DNA of 64,000 nucleotides from Rhodococcus oxybenzonivorans. GTDB taxonomy: Bacteria; Actinomycetota; Actinomycetes; Mycobacteriales; Mycobacteriaceae. Shown here in pieces: positions 35,436 through 63,661 of this stretch; the first letter of the stretch is position 1, and each line of letters opens with the position of its first letter. Under the pieces are notes generated by a model. It was not told where the DNA came from. It ran no database searches and worked only from the letters and a program-made list of their open reading frames with translations. The DNA lies in assembly GCF_003130705.1 (NCBI RefSeq), contig NZ_CP021354.1:992001-1056000 (forward strand), in the 5' to 3' direction. The translations under genes and the position numbers were made by a program.

Positions 35436-35449
35436 TAGAACGTGTTCCA
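35436..35449. promoter_or_regulatory. KstR operator for cyp125
   Basis: TAGAACGTGTTCCA fits TnnAACnnGTTnnA at every fixed base and lies 39 bp before the cyp125 GTG. Confidence 0.85.
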
Positions 35450-41447: not shown

Positions 41448-41461
41448 TAGAACAGGTTCTA
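41448..41461. promoter_or_regulatory. KstR operator between the ltp operon and the LLM gene
   Basis: TAGAACAGGTTCTA is a match at every fixed base of TnnAACnnGTTnnA. It lies between the divergent starts at 41432 and 41512 and can control both. Confidence 0.88.
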
Positions 41462-47554: not shown

Positions 47555-49126
47555 TCACAGGCGGGAGTAGCCGGTACCTTCGCGGACCCACACAGGATCC
47601 GCGCAGTTCCATCGCTGCGCGCTGAGTGTGCGCGTGAGTACCTTGAACGTGGCCGTGCGGGGAAACTCGGTGCACACCCGCACCAAGGTCGGGCGCTGTT
47701 TCGGACCGAGATCGGTCTGGGCGTCGAGGAATTCCGCGAAGTCGACGGGGTCGAATTCGCGGGTCGGCACGACTGCGGCCATCACCCGGTCGCCGACCTC
47801 GGCGTCGGGTACCGCATACACCGACACCTCCGCGAACCCGTCGTAGCGCAGCAGGATTCGTTCGATGGGCGCGGAGCCGAGGTTTTCGCCGTCCACGCGC
47901 AACCATCCAGTGCTGCGGCCGGCGAAGTACACGAATCCGTCGGCATCGCGGTAGGCCAGGTCGCCACTCCAGTACTTTCCGTCCCGGATTCTCTCCGCGT
48001 CGGCCTCCGGATTGTCGTAGTAGCCGGCGAAGGCACCGGGACCGTTGACGTTGACGAGTTCCCCGGTAGCGGCCTCGGCGTTGACCAGGCGACCGGATGC
48101 ATCGAATTCGGCAGGGGGACAGGGCAGACCCGACTCCGGGTCGAGGATCGCGATTCCGGCGGGGAGCCGCCCGAGTGCGCCCGGCGGTGAGCCGGGCGTA
48201 GCGGAGATGGCCACTCCGCCTTCGGTGGAACCGAATCCGTCGACGACCTGCGTGCCGAAACGCCGGGAGAATGCGGCAACCGCGGGAGCGGATCCCTCGT
48301 TGCCGTACATCACCCGCAGCGTGTTGTCGGCGTCGTCGGGCTCCTCGGGAGTTGCCAGCACGTACGACAGCGGCTTTCCCACATAGTTTGCGTAGGTGAC
48401 CCCGTACCGCCGGACATCGGCGAGGAAGTGGGACGCGGAGAACCTGCGGCGCAACACGATCGAGCTACGGGCCGCGAGCGCCACAGACCAGGCGGCCATC
48501 ATGGCGTTGGAGTGGAACATCGGCATCGACAGGTACACGACGTCGTCCGGGTACAGCGAGAACCGCTCGGCGAGCATCAGGCCGGGCCCGGTGATCTTCG
48601 CGTGCGTACAGCGCACGGCTTTGGGGTCGCCGCTCGTCCCGGACGTGAAGATGAGCATGAAGAGATCGTCGGGCTCGGGCGTTACCTGCTCGAAAGATGG
48701 CCGCTGTACAGACAGCATGTCGGCCCACTCCACGGAGTCCACGTTGATCACCGGGACCCCGAGTAGCAGTCCGTCGAGCAGATCCGAACGACTGTTCTCG
48801 GTGAAGATGACCTGGCAGTCGGCGAGCGCCGCATCGCGGGCCAGGGCGTCGCCGCGCCGGGTGGTGTTGAGGCCGACGAGGACTGCGCCGGAAAGCGCCG
48901 CCGCACCCGCGAGGAGTGAGAACTCGGGCACGTTGTCCATCAGCACACCGAAATGCCGCGGGCGTTCGGGATCGAGAAGATCATCGAGAACCGCGGCGCG
49001 CTGCAGGCTCGCCCGCAGGTGGTCTGACCAGGACAGGAAACGGTCCTCGAAGTACAGCCCCTCGGAGTGGCTGTGGGTGACACCGCGCAGCAGGTCTGCC
49101 ACTGTGCGTGCGAGTGTGGCCGTCAT
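47555..49126 (-). CDS. fadD17: FadD17, acyl-CoA synthetase
   Basis: 523 aa from ATG at 49126, which overlaps the fadE27 stop (ATGA). AMP-binding motif LIFTSGTSGDPKAVRCTHAK, YLSMPMFHSNAMMAAW, MYGNEGSAP, DGFGSTEGGVAI, YWSGDLAYRDADGFVYFAGR, WLRVDGENLGSAPIE and C-terminal TATFKVLTRTL with the catalytic Lys. FadD17 activates sterol side-chain acids; in M. tuberculosis it follows fadE26-fadE27 (Rv3504-Rv3506), as here. A 10-bp tandem repeat (CATTCACAGG twice, 47542-47561) covers its last codons. Confidence 0.92.
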   Translation of the reverse strand: MTATLARTVADLLRGVTHSHSEGLYFEDRFLSWSDHLRASLQRAAVLDDLLDPERPRHFGVLMDNVPEFSLLAGAAALSGAVLVGLNTTRRGDALARDAALADCQVIFTENSRSDLLDGLLLGVPVINVDSVEWADMLSVQRPSFEQVTPEPDDLFMLIFTSGTSGDPKAVRCTHAKITGPGLMLAERFSLYPDDVVYLSMPMFHSNAMMAAWSVALAARSSIVLRRRFSASHFLADVRRYGVTYANYVGKPLSYVLATPEEPDDADNTLRVMYGNEGSAPAVAAFSRRFGTQVVDGFGSTEGGVAISATPGSPPGALGRLPAGIAILDPESGLPCPPAEFDASGRLVNAEAATGELVNVNGPGAFAGYYDNPEADAERIRDGKYWSGDLAYRDADGFVYFAGRSTGWLRVDGENLGSAPIERILLRYDGFAEVSVYAVPDAEVGDRVMAAVVPTREFDPVDFAEFLDAQTDLGPKQRPTLVRVCTEFPRTATFKVLTRTLSAQRWNCADPVWVREGTGYSRL

Positions 49127-50244
49127 GCGGGGACGGTGGCCAGTTCGGCGCCGAGGGTCCGGAGCTGCCGGGTGGCGGAGCCGAGCCGGAACTCGAGGGC
49201 CTTTGCCGCGAGGAAGTACCGGTGCACGGGATGATCCTGGTCGAGCCCGACACCGCCGTGAATGTGAACCGCCGTGTGGGCCACCCGGTGACCGGCGTCG
49301 GACGCCCAGAACTTGGCGGTCTGGATGTCGCCCTCGCCGGGCAGTCCTTCGCTGAGCCGCCATGCTGCCTGTCACAGAGTGAGCCGGACGCCCTTGACGT
49401 CGATGTACGCGTCGGCGAGTCGCTGAGCCACGGCCTGGAAGCTGCCGATGGGCCTGCCGAACTGCACGCGTTCGCGGGCATAGGCGGCGGTCAGTGTCAG
49501 AGCCTGATCGAGCACGCCGTACTGGTACGCGCAGGCGCCGAGAGATCCTCGTTCGACGAGCCGATCGACGATCTCGCTGCCCTGCTCGACGGTGCCCAGG
49601 AGTCGATCGGCACCGAGGACGACTCCGTGCAGCGCCACCTCGCCGGTGGAGGCGAAATCGACGGTCTGCTGCCTGGTGACGGTCACCCCTTCGTCGTCGG
49701 GGCGGACGAGGAACACTGCCACGCCGTCCGGGGTCGTCGCCGGCACCAGGAACAACTCTGCCGACGGCGCCGCGTCGACGACGATCTTCGTGCCGTCGAG
49801 GGTCCAGCCGCTGGGCCCGGGGTCGGCGTGGGTGACCGGAGCGCCCGGGTCGTCGTTGAGTTCCTCGTCGAGGGCGCCGGTGAGAATTTTCGCACCGGTC
49901 GCTGCGGGCGCGGCCCACTCCGCACGCTGTTGTTCGTTGCCGTATCGCGCGAGCGCATCCGCCGCCATGACGATGGACGAGAGGTAGGGGACCGGTGCGA
50001 CGGCCCTGCCCAATTCGACGAGGATGCTGCACTGCTCGAGAACGCCGAAGCCGTCGCCGCCCACCGACTCCGGTAGTGCGGCGCCCAGGACGCCGGACGA
50101 GCCGAGTGTCGACCACAGTTCGCGATCGAGGCGGTCTTCGGCCACGTCGAGCTCCCGCAGGCGGTCGTTCGTGACGAGATCCGTGACGATGCTCCGGGTG
50201 AGACCGGCCAGATCCTGTTGCGCCTCGGTGAGGGTGAAATCCAT
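49123..50244 (-). pseudogene. fadE27: FadE27-type acyl-CoA dehydrogenase, interrupted by an in-frame TGA
   Basis: Reading from ATG at 50244 gives 290 codons ending DVKGVRLTL, then TGA at 49374-49372, then 82 more codons in the same frame (QAAWRLSEGLPGEG, FWASDAGHRVAHTAVHIHGG, VHRYFLAAKALEFRLG) to a TGA that overlaps the fadD17 ATG. The whole frame would make 373 aa, the family length; the interrupting codon is where Trp (TGG) is expected. FadE27 pairs with FadE26 (ChsE4-ChsE5 heterotetramer) to dehydrogenate steroid side-chain CoA esters. The lost part includes the C-terminal helices of the bundle, so the product is likely non-functional unless the base is a sequencing error. Confidence 0.85.
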
Positions 50245-50253
50245 GGTCGTGTC

Positions 50254-51465
50254 CTAACGCTTCGCAGGGGGCAGGCCGAGGGCCGTCATACCGATGATGT
50301 CGCGCTGCACCTCGTTGGTTCCGCCACCGAAAGTGAGGATGAGGGAAGAACGGTGCATCCGTTCGATGCGCCCGCGCAGCAGGACGCCGGGGGAGTTCTG
50401 CCGAAGCGTGGCCGACGGGCCGAGGACTTCCATGAGCAGTCGGTAGGCCTCGGTGGCGAACTCGGTTCCGTAGACCTTGTTGGCCGACGCCGCCTCCGGG
50501 CCCGGGGCGTGTGCTGAATCATCTCCCGTCGCTTCGTCTGCCCCGGTCGACGAGGCGATCTCCCAGTTCATCAACTTGAGGTACTCGGCCTTGGCATGGA
50601 CCCGGGCCAGATTGATCTGAACCCATTCCTGGTCGATGACGCGGCGGCCGTCCGGCAACTTGGTGTTCTGCGCCCACTCCCGCACTTCCCGCTGTGCGGT
50701 GAGGATCGGTCCGGCCGAGGTGAGCGCGACACGCTCATGGTTGAGCTGGTTGGTGATCAACGCCCAACCACCGTGTTCGGGACCCACGAGTGCGGAGGAC
50801 GGTACGCGCACGTCCTGGTAGTAGGTGGCGCTGGTGTCGGGACCGGCCATCGTGTGGACGGGTGTGTACGAGAATCCTTCGGCCGTGGTGGGCACGATCA
50901 GCATGCTGATGCCCTTGTGCTTCTTCGCCTCGGGGTCGGTCCGGCAGGCCAACCACACGTAGTCGGCGTATGCGATCAGGCTCGTCCACATCTTCTGGCC
51001 GTTGATCACATAGTCGTCGCCGTCCTTGACGGCGGTGGTGCGCAGGCTTGCAAGGTCCGTCCCTGCCTCGGGCTCGGAGTATCCGATGGAGAAGTGCAGT
51101 TCGCCCGCGGATATCTTCGGCAAGAAGAACGACTTCTGCTCGGGTGTACCGAAGTGCATGATCGTGGGGGCTACGGAGTTGATCGTGAGGAATGGCACGG
51201 GGGCACCGGCGATGGCGGCCTCGTCGGTGAAGATCAGCTGCTCCATCGCCGAACGCTCCTGGCCGCCGTATTCCTTCGGCCACCCGAGCGTCAACCAGCC
51301 GTCCTTGCCCATCTGCGCGACGACGTCGCGGTAGACGTTGCCCTCGCCGTACTCGCCGGTGGTGGCGGCGAGAGCCTCCCGCCGGTCCGGCGTCATCAAC
51401 TGCGCGAAGTAGGCGCGCAGTTCTTCGCGCAGCGCCTGCTGTTGTGGCGTGTAGGTGATGTGCAT
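50254..51465 (-). CDS. fadE26: FadE26, steroid side-chain acyl-CoA dehydrogenase subunit
   Basis: 403 aa from ATG at 51465 (MHITYTPQQQALREELRAYF), with GGAGAGG upstream. Acyl-CoA dehydrogenase features: GWLTLGWPKEYGGQERSAME, HFSIGYSEPEAGTDLASLRT, NGQKMWTSLIAYADYVWLAC, QLNHERVALTSAGP, RMHRSSLILTFGGGTNEVQR. Obligate partner of FadE27 in an alpha2beta2 enzyme. It is intact while its partner gene, 9 bp downstream, carries a stop. KstR-like site 42 bp upstream of the start. Confidence 0.92.
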   Translation of the reverse strand: MHITYTPQQQALREELRAYFAQLMTPDRREALAATTGEYGEGNVYRDVVAQMGKDGWLTLGWPKEYGGQERSAMEQLIFTDEAAIAGAPVPFLTINSVAPTIMHFGTPEQKSFFLPKISAGELHFSIGYSEPEAGTDLASLRTTAVKDGDDYVINGQKMWTSLIAYADYVWLACRTDPEAKKHKGISMLIVPTTAEGFSYTPVHTMAGPDTSATYYQDVRVPSSALVGPEHGGWALITNQLNHERVALTSAGPILTAQREVREWAQNTKLPDGRRVIDQEWVQINLARVHAKAEYLKLMNWEIASSTGADEATGDDSAHAPGPEAASANKVYGTEFATEAYRLLMEVLGPSATLRQNSPGVLLRGRIERMHRSSLILTFGGGTNEVQRDIIGMTALGLPPAKR

Positions 51466-51618: not shown

Positions 51619-51632
51619 TGGAACAGGTTCTA
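51619..51632. promoter_or_regulatory. KstR operator for fdxD
   Basis: TGGAACAGGTTCTA matches every fixed base of TnnAACnnGTTnnA and lies 83 bp before the ferredoxin start. Confidence 0.82.
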
Positions 51633-63647: not shown

Positions 63648-63661
63648 TGAAACATGTTCTA
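63648..63661. promoter_or_regulatory. KstR operator upstream of the epimerase gene
   Basis: TGAAACATGTTCTA fits every fixed base of TnnAACnnGTTnnA and lies 77 bp before the start at 63739, so the epimerase gene is probably KstR-regulated and separately promoted from mce4. Confidence 0.8.

Follow-up and report, generated by a model that had tools for sequence, protein, structure and literature searches.

The gene fadE27 of this Rhodococcus oxybenzonivorans genome is interrupted by an in-frame TGA, which probably arose recently in this strain as a nonsense mutation and would abolish the function of the ChsE5-type subunit. ORF analysis of the window (the whole stretch of 64,000 nucleotides that was analyzed) placed this TGA on the minus strand at 49374-49372, as codon 291, and so upheld the coordinates at which the first-pass annotation had ended the FadE27 frame. 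The truncated frame (49372..50244, minus strand) runs from an ATG start at 50244 through 290 amino acids to the early stop (49372..49374, minus strand), which was recognized by reading the frame and by comparison with relatives. Codons 292-373 are open beyond it. These 82 codons, the stranded 3′ part of the gene (49123..49371, minus strand), encode the second half of PF00441 and end at the natural stop TGA (49125-49123), which overlaps the fadD17 ATG (49126-49124) as ATGA. The motifs that had been quoted from these 82 codons were present, as was the overlap with fadD17 in which they had been said to end.

Among solved acyl-CoA dehydrogenases, ChsE5 was the nearest to the part of FadE27 before the stop (residues 1-290 with 4x28_D, E 3.4e-74), and fadE26/ChsE4 adjoins it. 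The 81 residues from beyond the early stop also had ChsE5 (4x28) as their best solved match on their own (E 8.3e-29), and because they match it independently, chance is excluded as an explanation of the open frame past the stop. ChsE5, or FadE27 (Rv3505), forms the beta subunit of the ChsE4-ChsE5 enzyme, a 3-oxocholest-4-en-26-oyl-CoA dehydrogenase. The neighboring fadE26 (50254..51465, minus strand), for a ChsE4-type alpha subunit, matched 4x28_A (E 2e-206) and is intact, as had been claimed, with 403 amino acids in this genome and in R. tibetensis. The proteins here thus resemble ChsE4-ChsE5 in best solved match and in fold, and a fadD17-like gene adjoins as at that locus; the difference from ChsE5 is that the frame here ends at codon 291 of 373. 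Excerpts from PMC6678751 state that ChsE4-ChsE5 places the alpha,beta double bond in 3-oxocholest-4-en-26-oyl-CoA.

The fadD17-like gene (47555..49126, minus strand) encodes an acyl-CoA ligase with AMP-binding domains, whose top NCBIfam match was FadD17 at 698 bits, below the model cut-off of 850. Also in the neighborhood are EchA19 (437 bits against a cut-off of 400) and an MCE-family protein (230 bits against 140.5), and the gene content fits a sterol cluster. A motif search found an exact match to TNNAACNNGTTNNA, which is presumably a KstR-like motif, upstream of fadE26 on the plus strand (51619..51632). It is one of four exact matches in the window (35436-35449, 41448-41461, 51619-51632, and 63648-63661), where 0.16 were expected. 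These four matches would identify the window as a sterol cluster of KstR type, with the one upstream of the fadE26-fadE27 operon as a predicted KstR-type operator.

The first-pass annotation had proposed comparing fadE27 across Rhodococcus genomes, and this comparison located an internal stop in the present genome only. The gene was matched at E <= 1e-100 in 26 of 28 genus genomes (the two others being G009, 75% complete, and G013, 99% complete); 25 of these 26 were without an internal stop, and the remaining one, with a single TGA, was this genome. At the stop site itself, the 109 relative loci located by tblastn, in which some genomes are counted twice, once per collection, encoded Trp (66), Thr (27), Gln (14), or Leu (2) and in no case a stop; the 80 named loci alone gave 39 Trp, 26 Thr, 14 Gln, and 1 Leu. 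An internal stop that is missing from the orthologs in this way is what a nonsense pseudogene would show. Trp had been expected at the site, and was found in all 29 loci titled Rhodococcus, Prescottella, or Rhodococcoides; the single exception within the genus set is a Thr (genome G022, locus L034). Whereas related Rhodococcus have Trp, most of the mycobacterial loci examined have Thr, and most of the Nocardia loci have Gln. As Thr and Gln are tolerated there, Trp is not essential at this site, and the decisive loss is not the Trp residue itself but the 82 codons downstream of it.

The closest named loci to the window were from Rhodococcus. A protein search scored 8000 candidates and gave 5009 matches; among the best 120 of these, the nearest relative protein (P0001, from R. 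oxybenzonivorans) is full length at 373 amino acids, identical at 283 of 290 positions before the stop and at 80 of 81 after it. A protein search with the stranded 81 residues returned 117 proteins whose length was suitable. The top-scoring one was 74% identical, and no near-identical protein was found among those 117, nor any separate fragment like the stranded piece. In the titles and abstract openings that made up the literature searched, we found no mention of a nonsense mutation affecting fadE27 in Rhodococcus. Strain-level nonsense pseudogenes are familiar in bacterial genomes, and fadE27 is like them in having one stop, a gene otherwise constrained and sister genomes that are whole. The stop is best read as an ordinary nonsense change at the level of the strain, in a gene that is well known, with nothing unusual when set beside such pseudogenes.

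Sequence constraint was compared on the two sides of the stop. In the comparison with R. tibetensis, the stranded 82 codons showed 18.0 synonymous and 2.0 non-synonymous differences (dN/dS 0.033), in agreement with the claim that fadE27 bears no other decay, and the 290 codons before it showed 69.5 and 35.5, respectively (dN/dS 0.158). For seven further relatives dN/dS was 0.066-0.130 after the stop and 0.116-0.163 before. The part after the stop was therefore the more conserved in 8 of the 8 relatives compared, which makes the contrast a property of the domain and not of the strain. Since dN/dS sums both lineages back to their common ancestor, these values cannot date the stop. Against the same eight relatives there was no excess of amino-acid changes in the post-stop part of this genome, so the stop is recent, or not real; the relaxed constraint that would be expected only of an old inactivation was not seen, which fits a recent origin or an error. 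No second lesion was seen in fadE27 on either side of the stop. This supports the earlier statement that the stop is either a very recent event or a sequence error, both of which remain, and a base error would explain the absence of further lesions just as well.

The stop divides the C-terminal acyl-CoA dehydrogenase domain. Profile positions 3-70 of the 150 in PF00441 were matched before the stop and 73-148 by the stranded piece, and so the truncated FadE27 has no complete copy of this domain. A predicted model of a whole relative (mean pLDDT 91.7, 32 sequences) had 4x28 as its top structural match (TM 0.94) and placed residue 291 inside a helix of residues 270-298, with helices 304-329, 339-354, and 357-369 beyond. 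According to this model the 290-residue product retains the N-terminal and middle domains, and loses the last eight residues of one predicted helix, the three later helices and, with them, the invariant HxHGGxG stretch. Residues past the stop that are invariant in the 32-sequence alignment include H327, H329, G330, G331, G333, H341, R342, Y343, and F344. According to excerpts from PMC11153573, the alpha subunit of ChsE4-ChsE5 carries the catalytic Glu, and the beta subunit interacts with FAD at its ADP-ribose. Given the lost helices, the invariant residues and the role of the beta subunit at the FAD, loss of function is likely. PMC10018825 lists an M. fortuitum strain from which fadE26-27 had been deleted.

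The assembly comprises 8.01 Mb in 4 contigs, with completeness 100 and contamination 1.53. To judge its quality, a 400-kb stretch, about 5% of the genome, was compared with 400 kb of R. tibetensis. Genes were called by codon-usage scoring, and orthologs were taken as best matches with at least 70% identity and at least 60% coverage. Orthologs were found for 189 of 344 R. tibetensis genes, 185 of them without a fault, 3 interrupted by a stop and 1 with a frame change. Two of the three stops lay within the last 11 residues, leaving fadE27 with the only interior nonsense codon in the 189 ortholog pairs, and the sampled 400 kb is therefore not riddled with faults. The reverse comparison (189 of 347 genes with an ortholog) gave 184 clean genes, 5 stops and 1 frame change; three of these stops were within the last 6 residues, one was near the N-terminus, and one fell in a giant gene, which also carried the frame change. 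In the window, 61 R. tibetensis genes had an ortholog, with a stop or frame change in fadE27 alone. The giant ORF lies outside the window (G000:C1:1064271-1080946) and changes frame near 1067144 and again near 1067480, so that it occupies three frames; its counterpart in R. tibetensis (G020:C1:234365-251080) is a single frame of 5571 amino acids. Over its first 20 kb, the smallest contig is a 99.9% match to plasmid NZ_CP058642.1 of Rhodococcus sp. ZPP, in three pieces across about 31 kb of that plasmid.

The main competitor of a real mutation is a wrongly substituted base in the consensus sequence of the assembly, with fadE27 whole in the living strain; we regard this as a minority prospect, though a serious one. 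It would account for a single lesion in a gene constrained on both sides and for the near-identical whole protein from R. oxybenzonivorans among the best 120 of 5009 matches, and the splitting of the giant ORF over three frames means that there is at least one more odd spot in the assembly or the strain. These points are countered by the finding of just one interior nonsense codon and one frame-broken gene in 189 ortholog pairs, and by an assembly with so few contigs at that completeness and contamination. Long-read errors are mostly indels rather than substitutions, which would also speak against a consensus error if the genome was sequenced in that way. For general reasons, and because the 400-kb sample was clean, a recent mutation is favored over a sequence error. 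We also considered that the stop might be functional, with read-through or recoding yielding full-length FadE27 under regulation. The conserved frame follows directly, the TGA is followed by C, and near-cognate insertion of Trp at UGA would restore the usual residue of the genus. In this genome, however, TGA ends 237 of 310 sampled genes of at least 150 amino acids, with TGAC as the commonest context (105), and so is an ordinary stop. As the stop was absent from every relative examined (none of 109 loci, and 25 of 26 genus genomes without one), programmed read-through is very unlikely. Recoding of the early TGA as selenocysteine was ruled out, for the genome had no tRNA-Sec above the family cut-off in a search that, among 14 control genomes, was positive at this cut-off in 5, and the five weaker hits were ordinary tRNAs (Gly, Tyr, Ser, Cys, and Ser by ARAGORN).

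An older loss, in which fadE27 was kept as a pseudogene after a paralogous pair took over, is the least probable of the explanations weighed. A FadE26-like/FadE27-like pair does exist intact near 261.6-264.8 kb (G000:C1), its members 51% and 39% identical to the pair in the window, but fadE27 has no second lesion, dN/dS stays low past its stop, and the nearest relative, among the best 120 of 5009 matches, is whole. The beta-like paralog, at 39% identity, moreover scores 420 bits with Tcur3481 against 210 bits with ChsE5, and so lies nearer the former. Tcur3481-Tcur3483 (PDB 6wy8, titled steroid ACAD) is a heteromeric acyl-CoA dehydrogenase, and its beta-like chain is the solved protein that the second locus matches best; unlike fadE26-fadE27, this Tcur3481-like pair stands at a separate locus and has diverged from the window pair to the extent given above. 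Another open frame lies between its two genes, which are at about 7.6-10.8 kb within G000:C1:254001-272000. Genome-wide, acyl-CoA dehydrogenase-like stretches gave 87 matches to truncated FadE27 and 28 to FadE26 (E <= 1e-30). A paralog serving as a second whole fadE27 was rejected, the next best match in the genome being only 39% identical over the whole query; one short FadE27-like stretch elsewhere has 43 residues at 49% identity. Two acyl-CoA dehydrogenase matches flagged with an internal stop are not broken, as they are full-length ORFs of 378 and 421 amino acids, and the flagged codon in each is its natural stop, reached just where the match ends.

The early stop may also affect fadD17. 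By eye, no clear Shine-Dalgarno sequence was seen in the 29 bases preceding the fadD17 ATG, and because the ATG also overlaps the natural fadE27 stop, coupled translation is likely. The early stop may uncouple fadD17 translation, as the overlap suggests, and should then weaken it. Two possible starts in the fadD17 frame lie at the early stop: a GTG (49373..49375, minus strand) that overlaps it as GTGA and is open into fadD17, and an ATG (49361..49363, minus strand), 8 bases past it, which may be a re-initiation point. The fadD17 frame is open backwards across most of fadE27 (49124-50116, minus strand), giving a mechanical ORF of 853 amino acids. That the early UGA acts as a switch, allowing low read-through FadE27 together with FadD17 re-initiated at the GTG (49375) or the ATG (49363), is a far-fetched reading: the frame is open, and FadD17 would gain a foreign N-terminal extension of 83 (GTG) or 79 (ATG) residues.

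If the stop is a recent nonsense mutation, as we favor, ribosomes on the fadE26-fadE27-fadD17 transcript would halt at codon 291, and FadE26, lacking the beta subunit with which it would form an alpha2beta2 dehydrogenase, would be left without a working partner. Breakdown of the C8 sterol side chain would then have a weak first beta-oxidation cycle or none, and fadD17 translation would be reduced, or begun at a misplaced start. Low-rate read-through of TGA usually inserts Trp, so some full-length FadE27 may form. The diverged intact FadE26/27-like pair may supply partial backup and may thereby soften the effect of the stop. Sterol side-chain blocks are useful in steroid production, and no general idea is changed by the finding. 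If real, it would mean that a single strain has naturally lost one enzyme of the steroid side chain, and would provide a ready-made test of how far the second FadE26/27-like pair substitutes for the first.
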